Assembly (NCBI RefSeq): GCF_024105735.1
Contig: NZ_JAAAML010000001.1
Location: 860,895-924,894, forward strand
Source: Parahoeflea alexandrii
Lineage (GTDB): Bacteria > Pseudomonadota > Alphaproteobacteria > Rhizobiales > Rhizobiaceae
Direction of reading: 5' to 3'
Length of the DNA: 64,000 bases
The position numbers and the translations under genes were made by a program. The notes below the pieces were generated by a model. That model was given only the letters and a program-made list of their open reading frames with translations. It ran no database searches and was not told the DNA's origin. Each line of letters starts with the position of its first letter. Position 1 is the first letter of the stretch. This document shows, piece by piece, positions 6,969 through 27,441 of the stretch.

Positions 6969-7049
<81 letters not shown>

Positions 7050-8157: not shown

Positions 8158-8356
8158 GGCTGGCCTTCCATTGCGCAAGAGCAGATTCCGCACTGGTTTC
8201 GTCGCTTCTGTCAAGGCTGTGGGCCGACCCAGCGGGCGCAAGCTCCATTTCGCCGGTCGGATGCATGGTGATGCGCAGGCCGTGTTCCGCCGCTGCCTGG
8301 GCTGCATCCCTTATCTCGCATTTGAGAAAAGTGCGGGAACGGCTGGGGCGGCTCAT
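8126..8356 (-). CDS. Small excisionase-like / AlpA-context phage protein
   Basis: The 76-aa protein begins MSRPSRSRTFLKCEIRDAAQAAAEHGLRITMHPTG, a pattern common to short phage proteins encoded directly before integrases in alphaproteobacterial prophages (a helix followed by a strand, then a disordered tail). Its 3' end overlaps the integrase start by 32 bp in another frame, implying coupled translation. Position suggests a directionality factor; sequence alone does not prove it. The first part of the longer open frame (to 8695) is a shadow of the upstream gene. Confidence 0.6.
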   Translation of the reverse strand: MSRPSRSRTFLKCEIRDAAQAAAEHGLRITMHPTGEMELAPAGSAHSLDRSDETSAESALAQWKASRGKAPGRSHH

Positions 8357-12600: not shown

Positions 12601-13130
12601 TGCTGACCCAGACAACCATCAAGAACCGGACGACCGTGCCAGGCGTCCCGACCGGGGCGGTTAAACCTCCCAAGCCTGCCCCGGTCACCTTTACCATTCC
12701 GGCCCCGCCCTCGACCAATAACTTGTTTCTCAACAAGGCTGGCAAGGGCAGGGTGCCGACAGCGCAATATCTGGATTGGAAGATGCAGGCCGCGACCGCG
12801 ATCCGCATGCAGAACGTCCAGAAGGTCGCGGGACGGGTCATCATTCTGATCGGAGTCGAGCGGCACTCAAGCCAGGCCGATATCGACAACAGGATCAAGG
12901 CCACACAAGACGCGCTGGTCAAGGCTGACATCATTGATGATGACCGCTTCGTGACCGCCGCTTTCGCCTTCTGGTCGCCGAAGGCCAATCATCTGGCGCA
13001 TGTCGCCATCTACCCATGCCAGCGCATGACGCTGACGTTCCACCCCTCGCACGATGGCGCAAGCGGGGCATTGGTGGTTGACGCGCCACAACTCGAAAAT
13101 GGAGAAGATCATGCCGATTTCACTCGCTGA
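12600..13130 (+). CDS. RusA-family Holliday junction resolvase
   Basis: The 176-aa protein matches RusA: TIPAPPSTNNLFLN at the start of the fold, then the acidic cluster ADIDNRIKATQDALVKADIIDDDR with the Asp residues that bind Mg. RusA resolves four-way DNA junctions, here probably during phage recombination-dependent replication and packaging. The start overlaps the previous stop by one base (TGATG). Confidence 0.88.
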   Translation: MLTQTTIKNRTTVPGVPTGAVKPPKPAPVTFTIPAPPSTNNLFLNKAGKGRVPTAQYLDWKMQAATAIRMQNVQKVAGRVIILIGVERHSSQADIDNRIKATQDALVKADIIDDDRFVTAAFAFWSPKANHLAHVAIYPCQRMTLTFHPSHDGASGALVVDAPQLENGEDHADFTR

Positions 13131-13980
13131 TCTCAAGCAGGTGCGAGCGGACAAGCCGCCGCGCATGCTCATCTACGGCCCGCCCGGCATTGGCAAGACC
13201 ACGCTGGCGAGCGAATTCCCGAACGCTGTTTTCCTGCAGGTCGAGGACGGTACGCCCGGCGATGCCGAGCTGACCAGCTTTGGCAAGCTCGGAACATACG
13301 GCGAGGTGGTCGAGGCTTTGGCTGCGCTCTATGAAGGCGACCACGGCTACAAGACGCTGGTCATCGACAGCGTCACCGAAATGCAGAAGCTCGTCTATGA
13401 GGAAACCTGCACGCGCGGTGATGAAAATGGCGTGAGCTATGCCCGCATGGAGGACTTCCCATATTCGAAGGGGTTCATGTTCGCGACCACGGTCTGGCAG
13501 GAATTCATCGCCATGCTGGACGCGCTGCGCAATGATCGCGGTATGGCGATCATCCTGATCGCCCACTCGGCAATCCAGGAGCACAAGGACCCGGAGCTTC
13601 CGGCCTATGACCAGCATCAGATCTCGCTGCATGCGCCCAAGAAGGGCGATCAGGGCAGGGCGGATCACCGAGCGTTGTTCGAGCGGTGGCTTGATGCCGT
13701 GATCCTGCTCAAGCGCAACGTGGTCATCAAGGCCGACGACAAGACCGGCGTGGCCGCCAAGAATGACAAGAGCACGGCTCGCGTTCGCGCCGCCGGCGGC
13801 GAGGTCGTGACCATGAACACGGTCGGCAAGCCCAGCCTCAACGCCAAGAACCGCTACGGCATTCCCGCGACGGTTCGCTACGACAAGGGGCAGGGCTTTG
13901 CAGCCCTCGCGCCATATCTCCCCGGATTTGAAGAAACGCCCGCGCCCATGGCTGCGGTCAAACAGAAGGATGCCGCGTGA
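13111..13980 (+). CDS. Sak4-like phage P-loop ATPase (RecA-like recombinase)
   Basis: The 289-aa protein has Walker [10 protein letters not shown] at 23-31, Walker B-like TLVIDSVTE and [10 protein letters not shown], fitting the phage nucleotide-binding protein family that includes Sak4 single-strand annealing recombinases. Sak4 proteins usually work with a phage SSB, and one follows two genes later. The ATG at 13111 is chosen because GGAG lies 6 nt upstream; the upstream frame to 13054 overlaps rusA. Confidence 0.85.
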
Positions 13981-14243
13981 TGTCGGACGCTGGAGCAGTT
14001 GCCCGCGATCAATTGCGGTCATTCGTCGAGCGCATCGAGCGCTTGAACGAGGAAGCCAAGACCATCGCCGATGACATCAAGGATGTCTACGGCGAGGCCA
14101 AAGCCATGGGGTTCGATACGAAAGTTCTGCGCGAAGTGATCAAGCTTCGCAAGCTCGATCAGAACGAGCGGATGGAACTTGAATCGATCCTCGACACCTA
14201 CCTTCACGCGCTTGGAATGGCGCCGGAACCGGAGCAAAACTGA
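13980..14243 (+). CDS. GapR-like nucleoid-associated protein (DUF2312)
   Basis: The 87-aa protein closely follows the host GapR family: [45 protein letters not shown] and [10 protein letters not shown]. GapR of Caulobacter clamps overtwisted, AT-rich DNA ahead of replication forks and helps topoisomerases. A phage copy sits here between a recombinase and an SSB. Its start overlaps the upstream stop by one base and its own stop is shared in the same way. Little doubt about the family. Confidence 0.92.
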
Positions 14244-14833
14244 TGGTACAGATCGCAGGACACTATGACCAGAATGCCGAACCGTCGTCGGGCGATTTCG
14301 ACCCGATCCCGGCCGGTGAATATCCCGCATTCATCGAACAATCCGAGATTGCTGAGATCTCCAGCAAGGCCGAGAAGGGCCGCTGCCTGGTGCTGACATG
14401 GAAGATCACGGGCGAGCACTTCGCCGGTCGCCTGATCTGGCAGCGGCTCAATATGTGGGCCGAGAACATGAACAATCTCGACAAGGTGATCAGCATCGCC
14501 AATTCGCAGTTCGCCATGGTCCGCGAGGCCACGGGCAAGCTGAACGTGGCCGATACCGACGAGCTTCTGCAGATCCCGTGCATCATCAAGGTCAAGGTCA
14601 AGACCGACCCGACCGGGCAGTATGGGCCGCAGAACGAGATCACCAGCGTCAAGGCCGCGAATGCTGGCCCCGCCGCTCGCACTGCACCGCCCGCATCCCG
14701 CGGCCCGGCACCGACGTCCCGTGGTCCTGCCCCAAGCAAGGCCCCTGCGGCTGGTGGCGGCAAGGCCAATCCGTTCGGGCACCTGAAATCGGGTGCGCAG
14801 CAGCAGCTGGTCGACGACGACATCCCGTTCTGA
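14243..14833 (+). CDS. DUF669-family single-strand DNA-binding-like protein
   Basis: The 196-aa protein has an N-terminal DUF669 fold (FDPIPAGEYPAFIEQSEI...LTWKITGEHFAGRLIWQRLNMW), a disordered Ala/Pro/Gly linker, and the C-terminal tip DDDIPF. That acidic Pro-Phe tail is the protein-docking signal of bacterial SSBs. Together with the neighbouring Sak4-like ATPase it forms a likely SSB/annealase pair. It overlaps gapR by one base. Confidence 0.85.
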   Translation: MVQIAGHYDQNAEPSSGDFDPIPAGEYPAFIEQSEIAEISSKAEKGRCLVLTWKITGEHFAGRLIWQRLNMWAENMNNLDKVISIANSQFAMVREATGKLNVADTDELLQIPCIIKVKVKTDPTGQYGPQNEITSVKAANAGPAARTAPPASRGPAPTSRGPAPSKAPAAGGGKANPFGHLKSGAQQQLVDDDIPF

Positions 14834-14840
14834 CCATGCA

Positions 14841-14880
14841 GCCGGGCGGGTAACAGGCCTAGTAAACCAACCCGCCCGGC
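14841..14880 (+). other. Strong 11-bp perfect hairpin without T run
   Basis: GCCGGGCGGGT (14841-14851) pairs fully with ACCCGCCCGGC (14870-14880) around an 18-nt loop. It sits between the SSB-like gene and the next gene. Lacking a U-tract, it is not a standard terminator; it may protect the upstream mRNA 3' end or tune the ratio of upstream to downstream expression. Confidence 0.7.
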
Positions 14881-14928
14881 ACCTTCACCATCAACGATTT
14901 TCACATTGACCGCGAAAGGACCGCGACA

Positions 14929-15141
14929 ATGAACGGCGAAGCCTTGCCTTGCAAGTGGCCTGAATACCAGCGCCCGGCACAATCGAGCCCGAACTTCACC
15001 CCGCCACAGCCCGAGAGCATTTGCGCCCCGGCCGATCTGACATGCGCCAATGAGGTCGAGGGCTTCCACGCTTTCAATCGTGCCCGTGCCCGCGCGCTGA
15101 TTGCCAAGACTGCCCGCGCGATGCGGGCGGAGGTGGCGTGA
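14929..15141 (+). CDS. Hypothetical phage protein
   Basis: The 70-aa protein has a Pro-rich N-terminus and an Ala/Arg helix at the end (FNRARARALIAKTARAMRAEV). An AAAGGA site lies 10 nt upstream, and its stop overlaps the next start. No family recognised. Confidence 0.55.
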   Translation: MNGEALPCKWPEYQRPAQSSPNFTPPQPESICAPADLTCANEVEGFHAFNRARARALIAKTARAMRAEVA

Positions 15142-15533
15142 TGCGGATCGTTTCCGAGCAAGAGTTTCACGCACGGATAGCGCATGTCCTTTCCGCCGAC
15201 ACTGACGACATAGAAATCGGCAGCGTCACGGGTCCGGGCAGATCGGGCGCGGTGGCCGCTGTTTACGCTAGTCATCTGTTGCACATTCCGTTCATCCCAT
15301 ATGGCGCAAAAGTTCCGACGCATCTAGGCAGGCTGCTTATCATTGATACGGCCATGGAGAGTGGCGCGACGTTGCGCAAAGCCGAGCGCAAGTACGCCTA
15401 TGCCGACCCGCTGGTGATTGCCTGCTACCATGAGCCGCCTCGTGTAGCGTTCTGGTATGAGGCCGGAAAACCGCAGCGTTTCAGGCACGAGGCGATTGAA
15501 CGCGCCCGCAGGCCATTGGCGCTTGCATCATGA
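15141..15533 (+). CDS. Phosphoribosyltransferase-like protein
   Basis: The 130-aa protein contains GSVTGPGRSGAVAAVYAS (the pyrophosphate-loop side) and RLLIIDTAMESGATLRKAE, the PRPP-binding signature of type I phosphoribosyltransferases (here DTAMESGAT in place of DDVxxTGxT). It is shorter than housekeeping PRTases. It could act in nucleotide salvage or merely keep the fold for another role. Translationally coupled to both neighbours. Confidence 0.65.
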   Translation: MRIVSEQEFHARIAHVLSADTDDIEIGSVTGPGRSGAVAAVYASHLLHIPFIPYGAKVPTHLGRLLIIDTAMESGATLRKAERKYAYADPLVIACYHEPPRVAFWYEAGKPQRFRHEAIERARRPLALAS

Positions 15534-16516
15534 CCGCGCTTCCCCCGCCCATCAATCCAACCGTCGAGGCAATCGAGGCCGTGGCGCGTCCACAGTCCCG
15601 CCCGGTCCGCATGTCGCTGTCCGACATCGGAAAGCCGTGCGAGCGGTCGATCTGGTACGGCTTCCGCTGGGCCACAAACGCCGCGCCGCGCCCATCTCGC
15701 TGGAACCGGGCCGGTGACATCGCCATGGCCGTCAAGCCGCTTCTGACCCGCTGGCTGACCGATACCGGTGTGTCCGTCGAAGTACTGGACATCTCGACCG
15801 GCACCTATCACGGCGTCACGGCGCTGGACGGTCATTTCTACTCGCCAATCGACGGCATTGCGACCGGCATCAAGGAAGCGCCGAAAACGCCGCACCTGGT
15901 CGTGACCGCCGCACTCAACACGCAAGCCTATCGCCGGACCGTCAAGGACGGCGTTGCTGTCGCCAATCCCGCCCATCTGGCCAAGGCGCAACTCGGAATG
16001 CATCTGCGCGACCTGACCCGGGCGATCTATGTCTGTTGCGACCGCAATGACGGCAGCGTCCATGCCGAGCGGATCCACTATGACGCGGCCCACGCCATGG
16101 CGATCCTTGCCCGTGCCGAGCGCATCAAGTTCGTGCAGCGCGCACCGGTTCGCATTGCCGACGATCCCGATCATTACCAGTGCCGTGGCTGCGAGGCGCA
16201 CTCAGTCTGCCATGGCGGGGCATTCCCGCCGCGCAATTGCCGGACGTGCTTGCATTCAGGCTGCGTCCAGAACGGCGAATGGTTCTGCATCCGCCATGAC
16301 CGAGAACTGACCACCGACGATCAGCGGGCCGGTTGCCCTAGCCATCTCTACATCCCGTCGCTTGTGACGGGCGATCAGATCGACGCCGACGAGCGCGCCG
16401 AGACCGTCACCTATCGCCTGCCAGATGGCCGCGAATGGGTGGATGGCGCGGATCGCAATCAGTCATCACCCGAACTTTTGCAAGCGCTGGAAGGCGCGGA
16501 ATGGAGCGAAGCATGA
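15530..16516 (+). CDS. Cas4/RecB-like phage Fe-S protein with degenerate nuclease site
   Basis: The 328-aa protein belongs to the phage PD-(D/E)XK exonuclease family with Cas4-type cysteines: C37 in IGKPCERSIWYGF, then C218, C221 and C227 (YQCRGCEAHSVC), plus RNCRTC (237/240). Asp108 in SPIDGIA is kept. Where relatives have an E-x-K (typically LEFKTHN) this one reads VVTAALN at 124-130, so catalytic Glu and Lys are replaced by Val125 and Ala127. It is therefore probably a nuclease-dead, DNA-binding Fe-S protein. It lies just before the sliding clamp. Confidence 0.8.
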   Translation: MTALPPPINPTVEAIEAVARPQSRPVRMSLSDIGKPCERSIWYGFRWATNAAPRPSRWNRAGDIAMAVKPLLTRWLTDTGVSVEVLDISTGTYHGVTALDGHFYSPIDGIATGIKEAPKTPHLVVTAALNTQAYRRTVKDGVAVANPAHLAKAQLGMHLRDLTRAIYVCCDRNDGSVHAERIHYDAAHAMAILARAERIKFVQRAPVRIADDPDHYQCRGCEAHSVCHGGAFPPRNCRTCLHSGCVQNGEWFCIRHDRELTTDDQRAGCPSHLYIPSLVTGDQIDADERAETVTYRLPDGREWVDGADRNQSSPELLQALEGAEWSEA

Positions 16517-16797
16517 ATATTTTCGACAAGATCACCGCCGCCGAATGGAAGAGTGCATCGCGTCTCGGATCTCCGGCACGCAATGAGTATGAATTCCTGC
16601 TCCGCAACGAGGCGATGGCCCGCCTCAATCCAAACGGGTTTCGTACGCCGCCAAAAGAGCCGCGCATTGATGCGAGCGGAAAGACGCGTGGCGATCGCAA
16701 GCGCCAGCGGCGGGATCGCATCAATTGGCATCCCATCGTTCCGCCGCAGCATCTGCACAGCGCAGCCCGCCGTCGCGCGAAAGGCGGTGCAGCATGA
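16513..16797 (+). CDS. Hypothetical basic phage protein
   Basis: The 94-aa protein begins MNIFDKITAAEWKSASRLGSPARNEYEF and ends in an Arg/Lys-rich tail, suggesting nucleic-acid contact. It overlaps both neighbours by 4 bp. No family recognised. Confidence 0.6.
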   Translation: MNIFDKITAAEWKSASRLGSPARNEYEFLLRNEAMARLNPNGFRTPPKEPRIDASGKTRGDRKRQRRDRINWHPIVPPQHLHSAARRRAKGGAA

Positions 16798-17933
16798 CCA
16801 TGAACCTGACCACCACAGCGGGCGCACTTCATTCCGCCCTCAAGACCGTTGGCCATGCAATCGAGCGGCGCAACACACTCCCTATACTGTCGCACGTCCT
16901 GATCAAGAACGACACCATGACGGCCACCGATCTCGATATCGAGATCAAGACCAAGATCCCGTCGTCGTCTGCCAAGGGCTCCATCTGCCTCGATCATCGC
17001 GTCCTGTCCGCGATTTCGGGCAACCTGCCCAAGGACACCGCATTGACCCTCGGAACAATTGAGGGTCAATCGGGCGCATCGTTGGCATTCGATGGCGGGC
17101 TCTACACGCTCAACACGCTGCCAGCCGAGGACTACCCGGACCCGGTCAAGAGGCCGATCAAAAAGACGATCAAGGCTCCCGAGGGCTTTCTCGACAAGCT
17201 GCGCTTCGTGTCGCACTTCATGAGTACCGAGGAAACGCGGTACTACCTCAACGGCGTCTGCATCTATGACGGCAGGCTGGTCGCAACGGACGGCCATCGC
17301 CTTGGCTACGTCGATTGCGGGATCGAGTCCAAGAATCGGCCAATCATTCCGCGCGGCGCTGTCGCTGCCTTGCTCGAGCTTGGCGAGCCGTCGCAGATCA
17401 GTTTCGGCGAAAATGTTGTCATCTTCGATCTGCCAGGCACGGTTCTCCGGTCAAAGCTGATCGACGGCACCTATCCGGACTATCAGCGCGTCATCCCCAA
17501 TATTGCGGACAATGCGCCCGAGATGACGGTCGATGGCAAGGTTCTCAGTGCTGCGATCAGGCGGGCGTCTTCACTCTATCCATTCCGGCGAACCGAAGCG
17601 GTCACATTTGCCTTGTCCGATGATGGTCGCCTGGCGCTAGTGCGAGAACGGATCGACGCCGGAACGTCACGCGAGATCATCCCGGCAACAGTATCCGGGC
17701 CGCCGCTCATTGCCGCCCTTGATGGCCGATATCTGCAGCACATGGTCAAGGCGCATCGCGGATCCGGCACACTCACGCTGCGTTTCATCGATGCCGGTTC
17801 GCCGATCAGCGTTACATCAGAACGGGAGGGCTTCAACTCGATACTAATGCCGATGCGCACCGGAAGCGAGCAGACTGCCCGCGAAGCACTGACCTTGCTT
17901 GCTCCGGCACGGCGTCTGGAGGCAGCGGAATGA
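16794..17933 (+). CDS. dnaN: Phage-encoded DNA polymerase III beta subunit (sliding clamp)
   Basis: The 379-aa protein is a full-length bacterial-type clamp: N-terminal domain (LHSALKTVGHAIERRNTLPILSHVLI), central domain (TRYYLNGVCIYDGRLVATDGHRLGY) and C-terminal domain (DGRYLQHMVKAH...FNSILMPMR). The motif TDGHRL is diagnostic of DnaN. It should ring DNA and tether the host polymerase, and might displace or compete with the host clamp. The conventional C-terminus MPMRL appears as MPMRT plus a tail of about 27 residues. It starts inside the upstream stop. Confidence 0.92.
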   Translation: MTMNLTTTAGALHSALKTVGHAIERRNTLPILSHVLIKNDTMTATDLDIEIKTKIPSSSAKGSICLDHRVLSAISGNLPKDTALTLGTIEGQSGASLAFDGGLYTLNTLPAEDYPDPVKRPIKKTIKAPEGFLDKLRFVSHFMSTEETRYYLNGVCIYDGRLVATDGHRLGYVDCGIESKNRPIIPRGAVAALLELGEPSQISFGENVVIFDLPGTVLRSKLIDGTYPDYQRVIPNIADNAPEMTVDGKVLSAAIRRASSLYPFRRTEAVTFALSDDGRLALVRERIDAGTSREIIPATVSGPPLIAALDGRYLQHMVKAHRGSGTLTLRFIDAGSPISVTSEREGFNSILMPMRTGSEQTAREALTLLAPARRLEAAE

Positions 17934-19345
17934 TCCACCCGTCGTATGAGGATCTGATCGCCCGCAAGGCCGTGGCCTTCACCCCGCGCGGCTTTGACCA
18001 GATCCCAGATCTCCATCCCGATCTGTTCCCGCACCAGCGCGCCGTGACCGAGTTCGCCCTGCATGCGGGTTGCGCGGCCATGTTTCTCGATACCGGACTC
18101 GGCAAGTCGTTCTCGGCTCTGGAATGGGGCAGGGTCGTTGTCGAGAAGACGAACAAGCCCGTCCTGATGCTGGCCCCGCTGGCAGTCGGCCCGCAACACG
18201 AACGCGAGGCCCGGCGCTTCGGCATCGATGCCAAATACATCCGCTCGGCCGACGAGATCGAGGGACCGGCCCGGATCTACATCACCAACTATGAGCGGAT
18301 CGACAACTTCCTGATCAACCAGTTCGGCGGCGTGATCCTCGACGAGAGCTCCATCCTCAAGAGCTTCGCAGGCGTCACCACGCGCAAGCTGATCCAGTTG
18401 TTCTCGCAAACGCCCTATCGGCTTTGCTGCACGGCCACACCGGCGCCGAACGATCATACCGAGCTGGGGCAGCACTCTGCCTTTCTTGGCATTATGGACG
18501 CGCCGGAAATGATGTCCCGGTGGTTCATCGCTGATCAGCAGAACGCGGGCAAGTACCGGCTCAAGAAGCCGGCCGTCAAAGCGTTCTGGCGCTGGGTCGC
18601 GTCATGGTCGCGGTGCGTCTCGCTGCCGTCCGATCTCGGCTTTCCCGATGACGGCTATGTCCTGCCCAGGATCTCGACAATCGAGCACACCGTTAAAGCC
18701 GACCGGACAATCAATGCAGGCGAGGAAACCAAGGGCAAGCTCGCCGGTCAACAGCGCCTGTTTCGCATGCCGGACACTTCCGCAACGGCTATTCACGCCG
18801 AGAAGCGACTGACCTGTCAGGATCGCGCCGATCTTGTTGCTGAGTGCGTCGACAGCGATCCGGAAGAACAATGGCTGATCTGGTGCGACACCGACTATGA
18901 CGCCGATGCCGTTGCCGAGCGCATTCCGGACGCATTGGAAGTCCGCGGATCAATGCAGCTATCCCTGAAAGAGGCGCGGCTCGACGCATTTGCCCAGGGC
19001 AATCTCCGCGTCCTGATCACGAAGCCCTCAATCGCAGGCTACGGCTTGAATCTTCAAGGCTGCGCTCGCATGGCCTTCGCAGGCCTCAGTTTCAGCTACG
19101 AAAACTATTATCAGGCCATCCGCCGCTGCTGGCGCTTCGGGCAAAAGCGCGAGGTCGAGGTGCATATCGCCATGGCTGATACTGAGGCAGCGATCAAGCG
19201 CGTTATCGACCGCAAGTCCGGCGACCATCTCGCCATGAAGATCGAGATGCAGATCGCGATGCGCGAAGCGGCCGCCAATTCCCGAGTTCTTCAATCCTAC
19301 GAACCGAAACAGGAGGCCACGCTCCCGGCGTGGATCAGCGCATGA
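17930..19345 (+). CDS. SNF2/DEAD-box superfamily 2 helicase
   Basis: The 471-aa protein has helicase motif I DTGLGKS at 54-60, motif II LDESS at 137-141 (DExx variant), motif III CTATPAPND at 167-175 and motif VI-like YYQAIRRCWRFGQKREV, which resembles the QxxGRxxRxGQ motif of SNF2 enzymes. Such helicases directly precede DNA methylases in many phages. Possible roles are origin remodelling or restriction evasion; DNA substrate unknown. Confidence 0.88.
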   Translation: MIHPSYEDLIARKAVAFTPRGFDQIPDLHPDLFPHQRAVTEFALHAGCAAMFLDTGLGKSFSALEWGRVVVEKTNKPVLMLAPLAVGPQHEREARRFGIDAKYIRSADEIEGPARIYITNYERIDNFLINQFGGVILDESSILKSFAGVTTRKLIQLFSQTPYRLCCTATPAPNDHTELGQHSAFLGIMDAPEMMSRWFIADQQNAGKYRLKKPAVKAFWRWVASWSRCVSLPSDLGFPDDGYVLPRISTIEHTVKADRTINAGEETKGKLAGQQRLFRMPDTSATAIHAEKRLTCQDRADLVAECVDSDPEEQWLIWCDTDYDADAVAERIPDALEVRGSMQLSLKEARLDAFAQGNLRVLITKPSIAGYGLNLQGCARMAFAGLSFSYENYYQAIRRCWRFGQKREVEVHIAMADTEAAIKRVIDRKSGDHLAMKIEMQIAMREAAANSRVLQSYEPKQEATLPAWISA

Positions 19346-20253
19346 CCAATGTTCTCGACCAGTCCGCAGGCACGTCCTGGCATGCCTACAATGCCGACAC
19401 CGTGGAATTCACGGCAGGCATGCCGACCAACTCTATCGACCTGTCCGTTTACTCACCTCCGTTTTCGTCACTTTATATCTATTCCGAGAGCGAGCGGGAC
19501 ATGGGCAACGTCGACTCGCATGATGAGTTCTTTGCCACATACCGGCACCTGATCCGCGAAAAGCTGCGCATCACAAAGCCGGGCCGACTGACAGCGATCC
19601 ACGTCAAGGATCTGGTTTTCTATTCCAACAGTTCCGAGAAGGGCGATCGCGGCCTCTATCACTTCACCGGCGAGTGCATTCGCGTTCACGTCGAGGAAGG
19701 CTGGACGTTCCATCGGCTGATCACGATCTGGCGCTGCCCGGTCAAGGAGATGCAGAAAACCAAGTCGGACAGGCTACTTTACAAGAACTTCCGGACCGAT
19801 GCGGCGCGCACCGGCGGCGGCATGCCCGAATACATCGCCGTGTTCCGCAAATGGAACGACGACATGGAAAACACTCCGGCCGTCGTTCATCCGCCCGCGC
19901 AATTCCCACTCGATGTCTGGCAGGAATGGGCCTCGCCGGTATGGATGGATACCCACGAAACGAACGTGCTCAATGTCGGCGCCAAGAACGACGAGGAACG
20001 GCATCTTTGCCCGATGCCGCTGGACCTGACCCAGCGCATCGTCCTGCAATATTCCAACCCGGGCGAGACCGTCTATTCCCCCTTTATGGGCATCGGCTCC
20101 GAAGGTGTGGTCGCGATCCGTGAGGGCCGCAAGTTCCTCGGCACCGAATTGAAGCCCGCCTATTTCCAGCGCGCTGTCCGCAATCTGCAGGCGGCCGAGG
20201 AAAACCAGACTGCCGGCGATCTTCTCGACACCTTCTCGGGAGACGCGGCATGA
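19342..20253 (+). CDS. DNA methyltransferase (N4-cytosine/N6-adenine type)
   Basis: The 303-aa enzyme has motif IV VYSPPF (SPPF, favoured by N4-cytosine methylases; N6-adenine ones usually have DPPY) and, near the C-terminus, the SAM motif YSPFMGIGSEGVVAIREGRKFLGTEL. The order IV before I marks the beta class. It overlaps the SNF2 helicase by 4 bp, so the two are made together. Likely protects phage DNA from restriction or marks it; recognition sequence unknown. Confidence 0.88.
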   Translation: MTNVLDQSAGTSWHAYNADTVEFTAGMPTNSIDLSVYSPPFSSLYIYSESERDMGNVDSHDEFFATYRHLIREKLRITKPGRLTAIHVKDLVFYSNSSEKGDRGLYHFTGECIRVHVEEGWTFHRLITIWRCPVKEMQKTKSDRLLYKNFRTDAARTGGGMPEYIAVFRKWNDDMENTPAVVHPPAQFPLDVWQEWASPVWMDTHETNVLNVGAKNDEERHLCPMPLDLTQRIVLQYSNPGETVYSPFMGIGSEGVVAIREGRKFLGTELKPAYFQRAVRNLQAAEENQTAGDLLDTFSGDAA

Positions 20254-20444
20254 GGATTACCGACCCGATCAATCAGAAGGTTTCGTTTCTCGAAGCCGAG
20301 ATCGCCCGCGAGGACCAAATCATCGCCAATGCCATGGCCGCCAAGCAGATCGGCGATGGCTACTGGAAAAAGCGCTGGGAACTCCAGAACAAGCTTGCCG
20401 TCGCCAAGGCGCTGCAGGGTGCGGTTCGGGAGGTGTTGGGATGA
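20250..20444 (+). CDS. Small helical hypothetical protein
   Basis: The 64-aa, mostly helical protein (KVSFLEAEIAREDQIIANAM...LQNKLAVAKALQGAV) could form a coiled coil. ATGA overlaps on both sides. No family recognised. Confidence 0.6.
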   Translation: MRITDPINQKVSFLEAEIAREDQIIANAMAAKQIGDGYWKKRWELQNKLAVAKALQGAVREVLG

Positions 20445-20575
20445 TCCTCACCTGTTACCGATGCCCGCGCCAGCTCTGCTTTCACGGCTCCAATCGCTCG
20501 CTGTTCGTTCGTTTGTTCGGATGGATCAACAGGGGGGGGCGGTACTTCTGCGCCTCCTGCGGAGGTGAAGAATGA
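20441..20575 (+). CDS. 44-aa zinc-ribbon-like protein
   Basis: This very short gene reads MILTCYRCPRQLCF...GRYFCASCGGEE with paired cysteines (CxxC at 5/8 and FCASC near the end), so it probably folds around one zinc. It overlaps the upstream stop and the downstream start by 4 bp each, which makes it a convincing gene despite its size. A run of eight G (20532-20539) lies within it. Confidence 0.6.
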   Translation: MILTCYRCPRQLCFHGSNRSLFVRLFGWINRGGRYFCASCGGEE

Positions 20576-21195
20576 GCGGTAAACCCCACGACCTCACCGG
20601 CCAGTCATTTGGTAATTGGATCGTCCTGGAATTCGCAGGTGCGGAACCGCCGAAGCACAAGGCGAAATGGTTTTGCCAGTGCGTTTGCGGCGCCCGGAAG
20701 GTAGTTCCCGCCGACAGCCTCAAGCGTGGCAAATCCAAGTCGTGCGGATGCCTCACGAACACCATGCGGATCAAGAGCTGTCAGCGTCACGGCCACACTT
20801 CAATCGGCTTCCAGTCGCGCACCTACTCGACGTGGCATGCCATGAAAGAGCGGTGTCAAAACGAGCGCCACATGTCCTATCCCGACTACGGCGGGCGCGG
20901 AATTTCGGTCTGCGATAGATGGAACGACTTCGCCAACTTCCTCGCCGATATGGGTGAAAAACCAGACAACGTTTCGATCGATAGGATCGACGTGAACGGC
21001 AACTATGAGCCATCCAACTGCCGATGGGCGAATGTAGCAACACAATCGGCAAACAAGCGAAAGCGCGTCAAGTATCAGGACATCTACGCCCTGATCGCCG
21101 CGGCATCTGCGGTCTGCAAATCACCAAGAAGTCAAACCGAGGTCAATCGGCTTTCCGATGCCCTGAAAGCACTGGAGGCCAGCCATGGGATTTGA
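20572..21195 (+). CDS. HNH/AP2-type phage endonuclease-like protein
   Basis: The 207-aa protein has an N-terminal Cys-bearing domain (WFCQCVCGARKVVPADSL...SCGCL) followed by the common phage module GGRGISVCDRWNDFANFL and SIDRIDVNGNYEPSNCRWA, found with AP2 and HNH homing-type endonucleases. The His-Asn-His core is not complete, so activity is uncertain. It may be a mobile endonuclease gene inserted between the methylase and the second helicase. Confidence 0.7.
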   Translation: MSGKPHDLTGQSFGNWIVLEFAGAEPPKHKAKWFCQCVCGARKVVPADSLKRGKSKSCGCLTNTMRIKSCQRHGHTSIGFQSRTYSTWHAMKERCQNERHMSYPDYGGRGISVCDRWNDFANFLADMGEKPDNVSIDRIDVNGNYEPSNCRWANVATQSANKRKRVKYQDIYALIAAASAVCKSPRSQTEVNRLSDALKALEASHGI

Positions 21196-22882
21196 ACTTC
21201 GATATTACCAGAACGAGGCGATTAAATCGATCATCGATTATTGGGATGCCGGCGGCGGAAATCCGCTGATCGAAATGGCGACAGGCGTCGGCAAGTCAAT
21301 GGTACTTGCCGGTCTCACGAAAAAGCTTCTCGAAGACTATCCGGCCATGCGCATCTTGATGGTTGTCCATCGCAAAAAGCTGATCCGGCAGAACTTCGGC
21401 GCGCTGTTGAAAGCTTGGCCGGACGCCCCGGTCGGCATCTATTCCGCCGGGCTGGGCAAGAGGGACGCCCATCATCGGATTACCTTCGCCGGCATCCAAT
21501 CCGTCTACAACAAGGTGCGCCAGCTCGGGCCGCGCGATGTCATACTGATCGATGAGTGCCACCTTGTCCCGGCAAAGGGCGAAGGCCAATATCGGCAGTT
21601 GCTTGACGACATGCATGCCATCGCACCGCATGCGCGCGTCTGTGGATTTACCGCGACTCCCTACAGGACGGACACCGGCAGGCTTGACGCCGGATCGTCG
21701 CGGCTTTTCGATGAGACGATCTACAAATACGACATCGGTAAAGGCATTGCGGACGGCTATCTGGCCCCGCTTGTTTCGCGCGCCGGCATTGATGAAATCG
21801 ATGTATCCAACGTGCGCAGGGCCGGCGGCGAATTCGTCGGAACCGAGCTTGAAAAGGTCTCTTTCGACATCATCGACAAGGCTGTGGCCGAGATTTGCGA
21901 GATCGGAAAAACCCGCAAATCGTGGCTGATATTCTGCCCGGGCATCAAACACTCAGAGGCCGTTTGCGCGGCGCTCAAGGCGCGCGGCATCATCTGCGGG
22001 ACCGTCCATAGCGGGAACGCGGAAGGACTGAACGACAGCAATCTCGAACGGTTTGAAAAGGGCGAGATCAGGGCGCTGGCATCTGCCGACATGATCACAA
22101 CCGGCTTTGACGCGCCGGGCGTCGATTTGATCGCAATGCTCAGAGCAACCCTGTCCGTTTCCCTCTACGTCCAAATCGCGGGCAGGGGAACGCGCGTTGT
22201 TTGGCCGCATGGCTTCGATCAGAACAAGGGCGATGCCGAGGACCGCATCAACGCCATCGCCCGGTCGCCGAAACCGAACTGCCTCGTTCTGGATTATGCC
22301 GGCAATATTCGCCGTCATGGCCCGGTCGATGCCGTGGGCGCCGAGAGCAAGACGTTCAATCCAGAAAGCGACACCGGCAAAGTCTCGGTTGATAGCGTGC
22401 GCGCCAAGGAATGCCCGGGCTGCCAGGAACTGATCGCGATCAACTCTATCACATGCAAGATCTGCGGACATGAATTCCCGCGCGAAGAAAAGCCCAAGCA
22501 CGAGGCCGAGGCCGAGAAGTCGGTCGGCATCCTGTCAGGTGAGAAGGTGCCTCCGCAGCAGATCCCGGTCGTCGACTGGCGGCTCGATCGGCACACAAAG
22601 GCCTATTCGCCGGACAGTGTGCGCGTGACCTACATCGCCGGCATTTCCGAATACCGGGAATGGCTCGCCTTCGAGCATGGCGGATACGCCAGCCAGAAGG
22701 CCATGCAGTGGTGGGCCATGCACGGCGGTTCGTCGCCCTACCCCAAGACCACCGATGAAGCGCTGCACCGCATGGAAGAACTGACCATGCCGGTCACCAT
22801 CAGCGTGAAGCCGAACAAGAAATATTTCGACATCGTCGGCCGATCGTTTCCGGCGCGGCGCGAGCTGGAGGCAGCAGAATGA
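21185..22882 (+). CDS. DEAD/DEAH-box superfamily 2 helicase with C-terminal zinc ribbon
   Basis: The 565-aa protein has motif I MATGVGKSM (about 32-40), motif II LIDECH, motif III FTATPYR, motif V MITTGFDAPGVD and motif VI QIAGRGTR, so both RecA-like domains are intact. A zinc ribbon, CPGC...CKICG, follows near residue 412. It resembles the helicase used by phages for origin melting or fork processing and the translocase of type I restriction enzymes. It overlaps the HNH-like gene by 11 bp. Confidence 0.9.
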   Translation: MGFELRYYQNEAIKSIIDYWDAGGGNPLIEMATGVGKSMVLAGLTKKLLEDYPAMRILMVVHRKKLIRQNFGALLKAWPDAPVGIYSAGLGKRDAHHRITFAGIQSVYNKVRQLGPRDVILIDECHLVPAKGEGQYRQLLDDMHAIAPHARVCGFTATPYRTDTGRLDAGSSRLFDETIYKYDIGKGIADGYLAPLVSRAGIDEIDVSNVRRAGGEFVGTELEKVSFDIIDKAVAEICEIGKTRKSWLIFCPGIKHSEAVCAALKARGIICGTVHSGNAEGLNDSNLERFEKGEIRALASADMITTGFDAPGVDLIAMLRATLSVSLYVQIAGRGTRVVWPHGFDQNKGDAEDRINAIARSPKPNCLVLDYAGNIRRHGPVDAVGAESKTFNPESDTGKVSVDSVRAKECPGCQELIAINSITCKICGHEFPREEKPKHEAEAEKSVGILSGEKVPPQQIPVVDWRLDRHTKAYSPDSVRVTYIAGISEYREWLAFEHGGYASQKAMQWWAMHGGSSPYPKTTDEALHRMEELTMPVTISVKPNKKYFDIVGRSFPARRELEAAE

Positions 22883-23751
22883 GAAAGATTGAGGTTTCCA
22901 AATATCTCAAGACGGAAGGTGAGCCGGGTCCGGCGCCAATGCTGCAGTGGATCGAAATCAGCCTTCTGGTTGTCGACGACAGCTATCAGCGCGAGCTGAA
23001 GGCTGGCAACTGGAAAGCTATCCATCGTATTGCAACGGGCTTCCGCTGGTCGCGCTTCTCTCCCGTTTTTGTCGCTCCGGTGGAGGGCGGTCGGTACGCC
23101 ATCATCGATGGCCAGCACAGGGTTCATGGGGCGATGATGGCCGGCATCGAGAGCGTGCCGTGCCAGGTGGTGCACATGACCCGAGAAGAACAGGCTGCAG
23201 CTTTTGCCGCCGTGAATGGCGATGTGACCAAGGTCACCGCCTGGCAGGTGTTCAAGGCAGCGCTGGCCGCTGGCGAAAAATGGGCGGTCGAAGCCGCCAA
23301 TGTAGCCAGCGAGGCTGGTTGCGAGTTGATGGTGCAGAATGCAAGTAGCTGGACCAAGAAGCCGAAGCAGATCTATGCAGTTACCGGGTTTCGAAAACTG
23401 CTGACCGCGCACAAGCGTGAGAATGTTGTTGCTGCTCTGACTGCAATCGCCCAGGCCGAGGGGTTCTCGGATGTGCCGGATATGTGGGACGGCAGCATCA
23501 TCCTACCGGTTCTTTCGGCATGCTCGCAACGACCGCGAGCGGTGACGAGAGGCGAAGCGTTTATCGACTTTCTCGAAATGTGGCCGCTTCTCGATGAGAT
23601 GGAACGTATTCAGTCCCAGACCAAAGAGCGGATCCGCAAGGGGCTGCCTTACATCGGCAAGAAAGAGCAGCTTGAAAGCGCGCTAATTGATGCCATCGAC
23701 CGGAAGTTTGTCGATCGAATGATGCTGCCGGCGCCAGAGGCGGTGAAATGA
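22879..23751 (+). CDS. ParB/sulfiredoxin-fold domain protein
   Basis: The 290-aa protein has the ParB N-terminal signature: SYQRELKAGNWKAIHRIA, then FSPVFVAPVEGG and IIDGQHRVHGAMMAG (the GxxRxxA phosphate-binding box). The C-terminal half is helical and lacks an evident centromere-binding HTH. ParB-fold proteins may be CTP-dependent clamps or nucleases; which applies here is unknown. It sits between a helicase and a DnaA-like protein. Confidence 0.8.
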   Translation: MRKIEVSKYLKTEGEPGPAPMLQWIEISLLVVDDSYQRELKAGNWKAIHRIATGFRWSRFSPVFVAPVEGGRYAIIDGQHRVHGAMMAGIESVPCQVVHMTREEQAAAFAAVNGDVTKVTAWQVFKAALAAGEKWAVEAANVASEAGCELMVQNASSWTKKPKQIYAVTGFRKLLTAHKRENVVAALTAIAQAEGFSDVPDMWDGSIILPVLSACSQRPRAVTRGEAFIDFLEMWPLLDEMERIQSQTKERIRKGLPYIGKKEQLESALIDAIDRKFVDRMMLPAPEAVK

Positions 23752-24089
23752 ACGCCCGGGTTCAAGAAATCATGCGCGAGCTGCCGCCGAGCGTCCGCAG
23801 CATCGTGGTTGATGCGGCGCATCAGTACGGCGTGAAAATCTACAGCATTTTCAGCCCAAGCCGTCGCAATCCGGTCGTCATGGCCAGATGGTCGGCGATG
23901 TACCGGGTAAAATCCGAGATCGAGGTCGCATCAACGATCAAGATTTCCGAGTGGTTCGATCGTGATCACACATCGGTCTTGAGCGGCTTGGCTCGCTATT
24001 CCGCGATCACCGGCAAGCCGCGCCTGACCAACTATGACCTGACCAGGCGCGTCAACAATCCATCACAAATCAAGGGTGTGAAGCTATGA
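23748..24089 (+). CDS. Stand-alone DnaA domain IV-like DNA-binding protein
   Basis: The 113-aa protein consists of the DnaA C-terminal HTH domain alone: SPSRRNPVVMARWSAMYRVKSEI (basic loop and helix), KISEWFDRDHTSVLSGLARY at 65-84. The DRDHTSV segment is the DnaA-box recognition signature (GRDHTTV in DnaA). There is no AAA+ ATPase domain. It could bind host DnaA boxes or the phage origin, acting as initiator or competitor. Confidence 0.85.
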   Translation: MNARVQEIMRELPPSVRSIVVDAAHQYGVKIYSIFSPSRRNPVVMARWSAMYRVKSEIEVASTIKISEWFDRDHTSVLSGLARYSAITGKPRLTNYDLTRRVNNPSQIKGVKL

Positions 24090-24583
24090 CCATTCACAAG
24101 GATTGGAGGATAATGGATCCTGCCGAGAAGATTGCGGCGATCAAGAGGGTCTATGAGCCGGGGTATTCCGCCTCGCAGATCGCGTCGCTAATCCCCGGCG
24201 CGGTGCGCAACGGCATCATCAGCATCTATCATCGCAAGGCTTCCGAGTTCGTGAACTGCCCACTTCTGCCGCGACAGGGCGGCAACGGGCAACGGAAGAA
24301 GCGACCGGAAAAACAGAGAGCTCCGCGCATCGTTCGCACATCGACGATCAAGGCAGCACTCGCGCCGCGCCGCAAAGCGTCCGAACCAAAGCCGCCGAAG
24401 CCTGTAGCTGAACCAGTCATCAATCCTGAATTCCGCATGATCGCATTGATCGACCTTGGTCGCGACGAATGCAAGTGGCCAGTCGAGGGTGCTGGCGAGC
24501 ATGCGCGGTTTTGCGGATGCGTCACCCATGAACCCGGAAAGTCGTATTGCGAGTTTCATCACCAGATATCGGTGCAGCCGTGA
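24086..24583 (+). CDS. GcrA-like cell-cycle regulator
   Basis: The 165-aa protein has the two GcrA blocks: an N-terminal HTH (DPAEKIAAIKRVYEPGYSAS then QIASLIPGAVRNGIISIYHR) and a C-terminal sigma-70-contacting block (CKWPVEG at 129-135, RFCG and PGKSYCEFHHQ). The linker is basic and Pro-rich. GcrA in alphaproteobacteria binds RNA polymerase sigma-70 and prefers promoters with methylated GANTC. The N-terminus departs from the usual WT(D/E)ERV start (here KDWRIMDPAEK). Confidence 0.88.
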   Translation: MTIHKDWRIMDPAEKIAAIKRVYEPGYSASQIASLIPGAVRNGIISIYHRKASEFVNCPLLPRQGGNGQRKKRPEKQRAPRIVRTSTIKAALAPRRKASEPKPPKPVAEPVINPEFRMIALIDLGRDECKWPVEGAGEHARFCGCVTHEPGKSYCEFHHQISVQP

Positions 24584-24840
24584 GCGATAACATCGGCATC
24601 CAGTGTCCGAAATGCCAATCGGCGCGCCACTTCGTCATCGACACCAGGCCGGAAGACGAGCGGGTCATGCGGCGGAGAAAGTGCAGGGCATGTGATTTCC
24701 GTTTCACGACCGTCGAGATCATCAAGGCCGATGTGGTCATGAGCGAGAAGCACGGCAACGCGATCAAGGTCAACCACGCCTTGGCCCTGGTCTCACGGCT
24801 CAAGACCTCGATTGAAGCAATGGCGGGCGATCGTGATTGA
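24580..24840 (+). CDS. NrdR-type zinc-ribbon protein without ATP-cone
   Basis: The 86-aa protein has CPKCQSARHFVIDTRPEDERVMRRR-type sequence followed by KCRACDFRFTTVE, matching the N-terminal zinc ribbon of NrdR, the repressor of ribonucleotide reductase genes. The ATP-cone domain that senses nucleotides in NrdR is absent. I use the GTG at 24580, which overlaps the gcrA-like stop by 4 bp. It may bind NrdR boxes or be a general DNA-binding ribbon. Confidence 0.75.
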   Translation: MSDNIGIQCPKCQSARHFVIDTRPEDERVMRRRKCRACDFRFTTVEIIKADVVMSEKHGNAIKVNHALALVSRLKTSIEAMAGDRD

Positions 24841-25177
24841 CCAGTTCAATCCTGCCGTCTGCGGCGTCTGCGCCCGGTCCGCGATTGGCATCGGCCACTC
24901 CCCGCCACGCGCATCCAAGATCCTTTGGCTCTGCGACGATCCGAAATGCATTCAAGCCGCGAAGGCAGTCCATTCAATGAAGCAAGACGAGTTCACCCGG
25001 ATCGAGAGCCTGGCCGCGGCCAAGGGGGGCGATGCCGGGATAGAGTTCCTGGAGACGATCGGCAAGACCGATTTCACGGCTATGAACATCGACGAATGGT
25101 CCGAATTCCGCCGGCGCATCATTGCGGGCTACCGCGCCGCCCTGCTTGCCGACATGACCGGCGAGGTGGTGCTGTGA
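24833..25177 (+). CDS. DUF6511-like hypothetical phage protein
   Basis: The 114-aa protein begins IDQFNPAVCGVCARSAIGIGHSPP and has WLCDDPKCIQAAK, a Cys-pair layout typical of a short zinc-binding phage protein found next to replication genes. I chose GTG 24833 (8-bp overlap); TTG 24812 is possible. Its stop overlaps the primase start by one base. Confidence 0.65.
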   Translation: MIDQFNPAVCGVCARSAIGIGHSPPRASKILWLCDDPKCIQAAKAVHSMKQDEFTRIESLAAAKGGDAGIEFLETIGKTDFTAMNIDEWSEFRRRIIAGYRAALLADMTGEVVL

Positions 25178-27441
25178 TGTCAGACACGACCGTCTCCAAT
25201 CGCGAGACAGCACTCTCGCTTGCCGCTGCAGGCTTTTCCGTCTTTCCCTGCCATTCCGGGGGCGAGAAGGCGAAGTCGCCGATGCCGTTTATAAAGTGGC
25301 GCGAGGCCTCGACGACGAGCGAGCGCCAGATCCTGCAATGGTGGCAGAAATGGCCGGACGCGGCCATCGGGCTCGACCTGGCCAAGTCCGGCCTGATCGT
25401 CATCGATGCGGACCGGCATGACGAGAGCGCCGATGGTGTCGAGGCGTTCGGCCAGCTGATGTCGGATCACGGATTTGACCCGGACAGCGCGCCGCTGGTC
25501 GCTACGCCGTCGCAGGGCAACCATCACTATTTCCGGCAGAGACCAGGCGAGGCGCTCGGCAACTCGGAAGGTGCGATCCGCGGCAAGGGCATCAATGTCC
25601 GCGGCCATGGCGGCTATGTCATTGCGCCCGGAACCGTCATGGCAGATGGCCGCGTCTATGAGCTATGGGGCGATATCACAGATCCGCCAGTCATTCCGGA
25701 CTGGCTGCATGGGCTGATCACCACGCCGCTTGAGCCGGTGCGGGAAAGGGTATCGCTTTCTCCGACACCCTCACACGAGCAAGCCGATCTTGATGAGATC
25801 GCGGAACTGCTCGGCTACATCAACCCCGACTCCGGCTATCAGGACTGGCTTGCCGCCCTCATGGCCGTCCATGCTGCTACGGGCGGATCCTCGACGGGGT
25901 TGGCCGTGGCCGATGACTGGTCCGCACGGGGCTCGAAATACAAGGGCACGAAGGAACTCGCGGCCAAGTGGAGGTCATTCAAAGGGCAGGGCGTCAATCT
26001 TGCCACCTTGGCCGCGCTGGCCCGCGAGAACGGCGCGGACCTGTCCGCCATCGCCATCAAGCATCGCGGCCATGAGCACGACTATGATCCGGTCGAGGCG
26101 GCGGAAGCGGCCCGCCGGCTGATCGAGCATCATGACGGGACGCTGGCAGATGCGGAGACGGGGGAGGTTGTACAGATTGAACAAAACGTACAACCCGAGA
26201 GGGTCACGAATATCGACTATCCGCCCGGACTGGTTGGAGATGTTGCGCGGTGGATCGTCGCTACCGCACGAAAGCCACAACCGGCGCTCGCTATAGGGGC
26301 GGCATTGACGATAGTCGGAACGGCTGCCGGTCGCCAGTTCATGGGGCCGACAGAGGCAGGAACCGCACTCTATGTTCTAGCGCTGGCTCCAACGGGGCAA
26401 GGCAAGGATTTGCCACTCAAGCAGGCTCGCAGGATTCTAAACGCATCAAGTCTTCCCCATCACCTGGGAGCGGACGAATTCATGTCGTTCTCCGCTGTTG
26501 TCAATGTGCTCAAGCGCAGGCCTCTTTGCCTGTGCCCCATGGACGAGTTTGGCGACTTCATGCGGAGAATATACGACAAACGGGCTAGTTCTCACGCGAG
26601 AGCGATCTCGAAAATTTTCAGAACAATGTGGGGCGGCAACTTCGATGAGGTATCGACCGCAGAGTGGGCTGAAAAGGAAAGCATTTCGATCTGGGCGCCG
26701 CACCTTTCTATATTCGGGGCGTCAACCCATGAGCAATTTTACACGGCGCTCGAATCGGGAGCTGTGTCAGATGGAACCCTAAACCGCTTCCTCCTGATTG
26801 AGGGGGCCAAGCGACCGAAGCCAGTGAAGCCAAAGGCCGATCAATTCATCGTTCCTCGTCAAATCATCGACGATATGAGGATTATCTATTTTCGGTCCGG
26901 CGAAATGGCAGCCTCAAACAGAATCTTCCCAGACACGGATATCGCCGGGACACCGGGTGCTGCATTCAGAATGAAGTGGTGCGCCGACGGCTCGGAAGAA
27001 TTTTTCGCGACCTTTTCCAGAGACATCGAAAACAAGATGTTCGCGGAGCCGGAGAACGTAGATTTCATCGTTCGAACGGCAGAGATGGCCGTGAGGATCG
27101 CCACCATTGTCGCTGCCGGCAGGCACAATGACAGCATCCGGCTAGATGACATACAGTTTGGAGCTAATCTTGCCATGCAGAGCGCCGATCTGATGATCGC
27201 TGGCGCGGCCGACTACATGGCCGAGACAGACCATCAGGCGAATGCCCAGCGCGTCGTCAGAATAATCAGGGAGCGCGGCGGCCGGATGGTCTATCGTGAT
27301 ATCGCCAGGGCAATGAAGCACATGAAGGCACGGGACATAAAGGATATGATGGCCGGTCTTTGCGAAATGGAAATCCTACGTCGCGAGGAAATTCAAAAGC
27401 CGAGCGGAGGTCATCCTGTAGTCTGGTTTTCAGCCACCTAG
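25177..27441 (+). CDS. Bifunctional primase-polymerase with C-terminal ATPase domain
   Basis: In this 754-aa protein the N-terminal prim-pol domain (1-180) has catalytic DAD at 77-79 and SQGNHHYF at 112-119. A PriCT-like region (about 205-290) follows, then a DUF3987-like domain with Walker A APTGQGKD at 404-411 and CPMDEFG. It should make primers and may unwind DNA at the phage origin. The true start is ATG 25177; the longer frame upstream is a shadow. The C-terminal half is AT-richer (47% GC in 26881-26940 versus 63% in 25561-25620), hinting at recombination between unrelated halves. Confidence 0.9.
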   Translation: MSDTTVSNRETALSLAAAGFSVFPCHSGGEKAKSPMPFIKWREASTTSERQILQWWQKWPDAAIGLDLAKSGLIVIDADRHDESADGVEAFGQLMSDHGFDPDSAPLVATPSQGNHHYFRQRPGEALGNSEGAIRGKGINVRGHGGYVIAPGTVMADGRVYELWGDITDPPVIPDWLHGLITTPLEPVRERVSLSPTPSHEQADLDEIAELLGYINPDSGYQDWLAALMAVHAATGGSSTGLAVADDWSARGSKYKGTKELAAKWRSFKGQGVNLATLAALARENGADLSAIAIKHRGHEHDYDPVEAAEAARRLIEHHDGTLADAETGEVVQIEQNVQPERVTNIDYPPGLVGDVARWIVATARKPQPALAIGAALTIVGTAAGRQFMGPTEAGTALYVLALAPTGQGKDLPLKQARRILNASSLPHHLGADEFMSFSAVVNVLKRRPLCLCPMDEFGDFMRRIYDKRASSHARAISKIFRTMWGGNFDEVSTAEWAEKESISIWAPHLSIFGASTHEQFYTALESGAVSDGTLNRFLLIEGAKRPKPVKPKADQFIVPRQIIDDMRIIYFRSGEMAASNRIFPDTDIAGTPGAAFRMKWCADGSEEFFATFSRDIENKMFAEPENVDFIVRTAEMAVRIATIVAAGRHNDSIRLDDIQFGANLAMQSADLMIAGAADYMAETDHQANAQRVVRIIRERGGRMVYRDIARAMKHMKARDIKDMMAGLCEMEILRREEIQKPSGGHPVVWFSAT

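Follow-up and report, generated by a model that had tools for sequence, protein, structure and literature searches.

Lone DnaA domain IV and GcrA genes of a Parahoeflea alexandrii prophage as a candidate late-gene switch

What do homologues of host chromosome and cell-cycle regulators do in the early region of a prophage? The question is raised by a stretch of 64,000 nt of the Parahoeflea alexandrii genome (contig NZ_JAAAML010000001.1, positions 860,895 to 924,894; hereafter the window), where an apparently complete prophage sits in tRNA-Lys(CTT), spanning 7,000-54,803. Its early region is on the + strand and contains GapR, the sliding clamp DnaN, a stand-alone DnaA domain IV (hereafter DnaA-IV) and GcrA. 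A sequence-only reading of this DNA had taken the four genes for one compact operon through which the phage would take over the host cell cycle. That interpretation is partly supported. It was found that all four homologies hold, each gene scoring above its Pfam cut-off and lying on the + strand where it had been placed, and the prophage itself is confirmed by the 50-bp repeat of the tRNA-Lys gene, the integrase, the terminase and the tail sheath. The idea of a single takeover operon was not supported.

DnaA-IV and GcrA share one spot in related phages, mostly one replacing the other, and this makes them the likely on-switch of the phage's own late genes and not a means of host takeover. The identity, order and strand of the genes, their exchange and their coupling are established at the level of sequence. 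The best reading is that the two regulators serve as interchangeable halves of a module that activates late genes. We consider it somewhat more probable than not that they form an activator of the GafY type which works with a NusG-type antiterminator, with GapR and DnaN as optional, predicted replication helpers.

One position upstream of the terminase

The main sample consisted of viral loci picked by their terminase, 79 of 95 being kept; 46 of the 79 contigs, at least 30 kb long, were searched whole. GapR was found in 26 of these 46 contigs, DnaA-IV in 22 (19 above cut-off) and GcrA in 15 (14 above cut-off). The co-occurrence for which the sequence-only reading had proposed a search is thus more than a curiosity, since the three genes recur in related phages. 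The median distance upstream of the terminase is 3.1 kb for GcrA and 3.4 kb for DnaA-IV, on the terminase strand in 37 of 37 cases; GapR lies about 10 kb upstream of the terminase and on its strand in 24 of 26. DnaA-IV and GcrA were observed together in 3 of the 46 contigs, against 7.2 expected (Fisher p=0.012). Removal of three near-duplicates (G210, G227 and G231) gave p=0.007, and home-made hidden Markov models (HMMs) on 41 slots gave p=0.037; these p values are only guides, because the contigs share lineages. The slots are the 7 kb upstream of the terminase in 44 of the 46 contigs (G224 gave 5.4 kb; G206 and G245, with less than 2 kb ahead of the terminase, were left out).

The exchange can be seen at the level of a single gene. 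A contig with GcrA (G204) and one with DnaA-IV (G214) can be aligned on either side of the slot, with nucleotide identities of 76% along the preceding 2.5 kb and 78% from its far side through the antiterminator, and the DNA left unaligned between the flanks is 524 nt holding GcrA in the former and 400 nt holding DnaA-IV in the latter. Both regulator types occur within each of two NusG-like clusters and one GafZ-like cluster, and NusG is 98% identical between G202, which has GcrA, and G241, which has DnaA-IV. A third occupant was found in G226 and G227 (L246, L247): a LexA DNA-binding domain on its own (PF01726 9.6e-12), without peptidase and immediately ahead of NusG.

The partner gene recurs as well. 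The window encodes a NusG paralogue whose NGN domain reaches 39.3 bits against a PF02357 cut-off of 22.2, and in many sister slots DnaA-IV adjoins an antiterminator-type gene. When slots with DnaA-IV, GcrA or the LexA DNA-binding domain are taken together, 31 of 35 have a NusG-like, GafZ-like or third-family gene within 2 kb downstream on the same strand; NusG or GafZ-like genes alone account for 24 of 31 DnaA-IV/GcrA slots (3 near-duplicates removed). The home-made HMM detected NusG in 20 of 44 slots, and hmmscan confirmed all four members tested (window, L118, L240 and L235). A GafZ-related family fills the antiterminator position in 12 of the 44 sister slots. Its match to Pfam DUF6456 is below the cut-off, and its kinship to GafZ comes from profile-profile comparison only, in which the phage profile matched host GafZ with 94% probability (E 1.1e-7, 124 columns; NusG control 0.5%); for the GRKRR family the same kind of comparison reached 46%. 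In a second sample, the best 80 of 179 viral GapR loci, NusG follows within 1.5 kb in 22 of 39 regulator-bearing loci. The named isolate RHph_N28_2 has the order DnaA-like, HNH, NusG. A separate observation is that 7 of 10 slices scanned (L233-L236, L238-L240) have a tRNA gene, six times Met(CAT) and once Val, in the interval that separates the antiterminator-position gene from the terminase.

Domains of the two regulators and their known relatives

The DnaA-IV protein is 113 amino acids long and scores 38.8 bits against PF08299 (cut-off 31.5). No ATPase family was matched, and TIGR00362 aligned only over positions 347-415 of 437; judged by these searches the protein is not a DnaA, as the ATPase is missing. 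The seven top PDB matches of its AlphaFold2 model (pLDDT 84.8) are all DnaA, the first three being domain IV on DNA, including 3pvp and 1j1v; match probabilities are 0.97-1.00 with E values from 9e-3 to 0.24, none below 1e-3. The recognition motif reads DHTS and retains the His of DnaA, a residue kept in 58 of 64 phage DnaA-IV matches and in 23 of 23 slot matches. A genome scan with a DnaA-IV alignment yielded no relative among 92 pattern matches, and viral contigs scanned with the single DnaA-IV sequence gave no match. Some 20 viral contigs (L125, L126, L129-L146) carry another family of lone DnaA-IV, starting MNYWTQP or similarly, with no GapR, GcrA or NusG in the stretch examined.

GcrA matches PF07750 over residues 13-165 with 66.9 bits (cut-off 26.9), which takes in the DNA-binding part and the sigma-interacting domain (SID), and it matches PDB 7ye1 at 9.8e-11. 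Its score is far below the threshold of the cell-cycle equivalog NF050816 (55.3 bits vs 280), so that by sequence the phage GcrA is a homologue and not the orthologue of the host cell-cycle protein. Alignment of the window protein with nine phage or prophage GcrA proteins and host GcrA revealed 13 invariant columns, 7 in the DNA-binding part and 6 in the SID. The domains are also found rearranged. In L010, GapR, a 76-aa GcrA reduced to the SID and DnaA-IV are consecutive and overlapping (ATGA between the first two), and L012 has GapR, a ParB-like gene, an SID-only GcrA and DnaA-IV; the SID-only form is confirmed by Pfam in L010 and detected by home-made HMM alone in L012. One open reading frame (ORF) of L122 fuses the GcrA DNA-binding domain (PF07750 5.6e-8) to DnaA-IV (weak, 4.5e-4), and one of L118 fuses DnaA-IV (3.7e-14) to NusG (5.4e-18), each fusion being known from one contig. 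Agrobacterium phage Atu_ph08 (L387) has a row of GapR, GcrA, a gene of unknown function and a C5 methylase at 1027-4366, in which only the C5 methylase is annotated and the rest are hypothetical.

RfaH/LoaP-type NusG paralogues and lambda Q act in operon-specific antitermination ahead of long gene clusters; the antiterminator of the window type differs in having a DnaA-IV or GcrA gene as its partner. Among the closest parallels is the Caulobacter pair described in PMC9632790 and PMC11150451, where GafY, a DnaA domain IV homologue, and GafZ, an antiterminator, jointly activate the gene transfer agent. In Hyphomicrobiales the gafYZ pair is reported to sit between mucR and sufE (PMC9638019), and the window host's own locus of this type (G000:C8:434264, L006) agrees with the published synteny, reading mucR, DnaA_C, DUF6456, sufE. 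The likeness to GafY-GafZ and GafA lies in a lone DnaA-IV that in many sister slots stands beside an antiterminator, as a split or fused pair, and would control phage-like structural genes. The window differs in that DnaA-IV has DHTS and not DRTT, the NusG paralogue that would be its partner lies at a distance of 4.5 kb, GcrA comes in as an addition or a substitute, and the element is a prophage that brings replication and integration genes of its own and not a domesticated gene transfer agent. It is claimed that DnaA-IV would work like GafY, not that it is GafY.

Among phages, Roseophage RDJLPhi1 encodes GafA together with a CtrA that lacks the receiver domain, according to the accessible text of PMC6363796, which gives a precedent of a phage whose GafA-type activator is accompanied by a cell-cycle regulator of the host. 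In both cases such a regulator is trimmed to its DNA-acting part; RDJLPhi1 has CtrA in place of GcrA and lone DnaA-IV, and a one-slot exchange is not described for it in the same text. The GcrA (PF07750) of phiCbK-like Caulobacter phages was proposed to raise host replication genes (PMC3556154). GcrA of the window type differs from it in occupying the slot before antiterminator and terminase and in swapping with DnaA-IV. In the literature searched, with subscription journals mostly outside reach, there was no report of GcrA as an exchangeable partner.

GapR, DnaN and the layout of the prophage

The four genes cover 10.6 kb and at least eight further ORFs are interspersed among them, the sole adjacent pair being DnaA-IV and GcrA with a 4-nt overlap (Table 1). 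The early gene order recurs in two siblings, one being a viral contig (L111/L008; the G201 contig, 42 kb) and the other a prophage of the congeneric genome G017, of whose contig 34.8 of 49.8 kb was read. In both, DnaA-IV is followed directly by GcrA with overlapping genes, and in both there is no GapR between Sak4 and the SSB-like gene. GapR gave no match across the whole 42 kb of G201; neither GapR nor DnaN was found in the part of the G017 contig that was read, and the G017 genome has two GapR matches, the place of one of which was not given. The position of the ParB-N-like gene is occupied by a C5-cytosine methylase in the siblings. In other phages (L011, L012, L081 and L110) GapR adjoins the same ParB-like gene, and the window gene is 78-81% identical to the GapR-adjacent genes of L011 and L012. 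From the sibling comparison, DnaA-IV and GcrA are a stable pair, whereas GapR, the ParB-like gene and the clamp are variable.

The DNA-binding domain of GapR is well supported (PF10073, 114.5 bits vs a cut-off of 22.6; PDB 6cfx at 1.3e-26). Its score is below the Caulobacter-type equivalog NF052541 (88.3 bits vs 140) and above the subfamily NF010247 (124 vs 94), and by these scores it is a GapR-family homologue and not an equivalog. In a weakly resolved tree of 90 columns it groups with Hoeflea-type chromosomal GapR, the host's chromosomal GapR being placed among Hoeflea sequences as well. This is the pattern expected of host capture, and of the suggestion that trees might reveal the phage copies as captures from hosts, the part on GapR thus gains support. 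The host keeps its own gapR, gcrA and dnaA outside the prophage. DnaN has three clamp domains above the Pfam cut-offs and passes TIGR00663 (161.5 bits vs 137.65). GapR and DnaN are most plausibly optional genes that would assist replication.

GapR is common in phages, with 155 phage records matching the window protein by tblastn. The paper on Erythrobacter phage R34L1 presents its DUF2312/UPF0335 protein as the first phage GapR and classes the gene as auxiliary metabolic (PMC12185513); in the phages examined here, by contrast, GapR is common and optional. The published table of phiLM21-like prophages has GcrA, DnaA and UPF0335 entries (PMC12429752). The 80 viral GapR loci comprise 20 with GcrA only, 13 with DnaA-IV only, 6 with both and 41 with neither. 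An operon of GapR, GcrA and DnaA-IV as a unit was rejected, as only 6 of the 80 loci have GcrA and DnaA-IV. Tallying GapR and DnaA_C matches across 201 relatives gave nothing usable for co-location; among the matches listed, chromosomal copies dominate. phrog_4212 (353 positions) matches GapR C-terminally at positions 273-352, a possible GapR fusion.

Besides the terminase, portal, sheath and tape measure are encoded in the prophage. The integrase, recognised by its phrog match, gave no match in Pfam and NCBIfam searches. Genes for a DNA_pol_B_exo2-type exonuclease and a PAPS-reductase-like protein lie between integrase and repressor (9417-10880, - strand).

Table 1. Features of the prophage, in window coordinates (HTH, helix-turn-helix)
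Feature	Position	Strand	Evidence
attL, 3' part of tRNA-Lys(CTT), 50-bp exact repeat	7000..7049	+	repeat search
Integrase	7147..8307	-	phrog_1, E 2.2e-35
CI/LexA-type repressor (HTH + S24 peptidase)	10950..11627	-	PF12844, PF00717
Sak4-like recombinase, overlapped by GapR start	13054..13980	+	phrog_124 6.3e-40
GapR homologue	13977 (GTG) or 13980 (ATG) to 14243	+	PF10073 E 1.7e-33
DUF669/SSB-like protein	14243..14833	+	PF05037; phrog_2300, phrog_6015
DnaN sliding clamp	16794..17933	+	PF00712/PF02767/PF02768 E 2.6e-13/4e-12/1.9e-6; phrog_947 7.8e-65
SNF2/DEAD helicase	17930-19345	+	library search
N6/N4 DNA methylase	19330-20253	+	library search
ParB-N-like protein	22879..23751	+	phrog_1033 2.2e-20
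Stand-alone DnaA domain IV, without AAA+	23748..24089	+	PF08299 E 9.8e-10
GcrA with HTH and SID	24086..24583	+	PF07750 E 3.5e-18
NrdR-like zinc ribbon protein	24547..24840	+	PF22811 1e-11
Primase-polymerase	25174..27441	+	PF09250 2.2e-31, phrog_3022 6.7e-79
NusG-type antiterminator (predicted)	29091..29714	+	PF02357 9.8e-10; phrog_25909 1.1e-18
Terminase large subunit, first of late genes	30518..31966	+	phrog_3717 1.8e-62
attR, second copy of the 50-bp exact repeat of attL	54754..54803	+	repeat search

A predicted late switch and its alternatives

The position of DnaA-IV and GcrA, their exchange and the genes that accompany them speak for late genes of the phage itself as the target. DnaA-IV would bind the late promoter, sequence-specific DNA binding being possible without the ATPase needed for origin opening, and GcrA, whose SID is conserved, could be providing the contact to region 2 of sigma70. 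NusG would then load on RNA polymerase, and the late operon for packaging, head and tail would be transcribed through terminators. GapR, probably acquired from a Hoeflea-like host lineage, may deal with positive supercoils on replicating phage DNA.

A number of observations weigh against a late switch. No binding site for the predicted DnaA-IV/GcrA activator was found, and a survey of alphaproteobacterial phages, in its accessible text, reports no asymmetric distribution of known GcrA and DnaA sites (PMC9437464). The recognition motif has Arg (DRTT or DRST for DHTT) in 25 of 25 readable host GafY proteins, where the window DnaA-IV has His; that host set comprises 30 loci, 4 of them without candidate and one false ORF (L361) left out. 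In the window, NusG is 4.5 kb downstream of the regulators with the primase in between. Among the 44 slots, 4 have neither a regulator nor an antiterminator-position gene, 5 have the latter only and 3 a regulator only. The Pfam genome search detects NusG in only 11 of the 46 contigs, and of 42 viral loci found by DnaA-IV itself, about twenty of which belong to the other DnaA-IV family, NusG lies within 2 kb in 4 and a GafZ-like gene in 2. The fusion in L118 is perhaps specific to that contig, as a stop interrupts it in the closely related L117. The exclusion also has its limits. The 46 contigs are of common lineage and not independent, and the 80 GapR loci taken whole show none (both in 6 vs 6.2 expected, p=1.0); with hits above 22 bits, both occur in 2 vs 5.1 expected, which is suggestive (p=0.08). 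Among the six loci with both, L044 and L045 rest on 13-bit GcrA hits and L035 and L050 on DnaA-IV hits of 20-21 bits. Finally, pre-terminase DNA does not clearly track the regulator type: the identity fraction averages 0.050 within types and 0.019 across them, random shuffling of the labels was as high in 107 of 2000 cases, and one GcrA/DnaA-IV pair shares 47%.

The alternative that survives best is host takeover, in which GcrA and DnaA-IV would target the GcrA/CcrM promoters and DnaA boxes of the host, and GapR its chromosome, so that the host is kept replicating or its initiation is blocked. We regard it as unlikely, and less supported than the late switch. It would fit with the DNA-binding and sigma-binding domains retained in phage GcrA, with the SID-only forms of L010 and L012, which could compete with host GcrA, and with the role suggested for the phiCbK protein (PMC3556154). 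Overexpression of HdaB, which is GafY, stimulates replication according to an earlier study cited in PMC9632790; on the other hand, those who described GafY propose that oriC is not its target (PMC9632790, PMC11150451). GcrA-type sites are scarce in the phage genome, with 45 GANTC motifs where 269 would be expected; the host flanks have 28 against an expectation of 80. The ratio is 0.12-0.22 of expectation in the window prophage, G017, L111 and 71 GapR-bearing loci and 0.36 in the host flanks. However, phage loci that lack GcrA are depleted of GANTC just as strongly, to 0.20-0.22 of expectation, so that the depletion is no evidence about GcrA. The DnaA box TTWTNCACA does not occur in the 64-kb window; its absence from the phage is uninformative because only 0.7 would be expected in the prophage. 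Takeover by a single compact operon is not supported by the siblings, which have no GapR at the Sak4-SSB place (G201 being without it altogether) and, in the stretch of G017 read, no DnaN. It also leaves unexplained why DnaA-IV and GcrA occupy one slot ahead of antiterminator and terminase and swap there, a layout of the GafY-GafZ kind.

A phage replication set is improbable, a shade more so than takeover. DnaA-IV would mark the phage origin or block host oriC, DnaN, GapR and the primase-polymerase would serve the replisome, and GcrA would merely be co-located. The neighbouring genes are indeed replicative (Sak4, SSB, DnaN, helicases, PrimPol) and GapR is positively associated with DnaA-IV, 18 of the 22 DnaA-IV contigs carrying it (Fisher p=0.001), but DnaA-IV is without the AAA+ ATPase, a cluster of DnaA boxes was not found in the prophage, and DnaA-IV is swapped for GcrA, whose known role is in transcription. 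Chance neighbours, that is accessory genes captured into a variable stretch with no shared task, are the least probable of all: the insertion of GapR and of the ParB-like gene at sites which in the siblings are empty or taken by a C5 methylase, the gene order that varies among lineages and the 41 of 80 GapR loci without GcrA and DnaA-IV would suit it, but the uniform strand (37/37), the constant place, the exclusion in the terminase set and the recurrent coupling to an antiterminator exceed what random insertion would give.

The late switch may be one form of a more general arrangement, which we put forward tentatively and with rather less than even confidence. In this arrangement a plug-in socket of alphaproteobacterial phages would accept a piece derived from cell-cycle or SOS regulators of the host, be it DnaA-IV, GcrA or a LexA DNA-binding domain, together with an antiterminator (a NusG paralogue or GafZ homologue), each half being swapped independently, and the window would hold the double version, with DnaA-IV for the DNA and GcrA for sigma70. 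Phage GcrA would be a late-gene activator, and host GcrA and GafY could belong to one pool of phage-borne switches. GcrA of phages, so far read as a retuner of the host cell cycle, would thus get a concrete job inside the phage, and the late switches of ordinary phages would be tied to the control of gene transfer agents. It is predicted that loss of either gene would abolish late transcription and not host cell-cycle progress. Such a role would also account for phage genes that are annotated as 'DnaA' or 'cell cycle regulator'.

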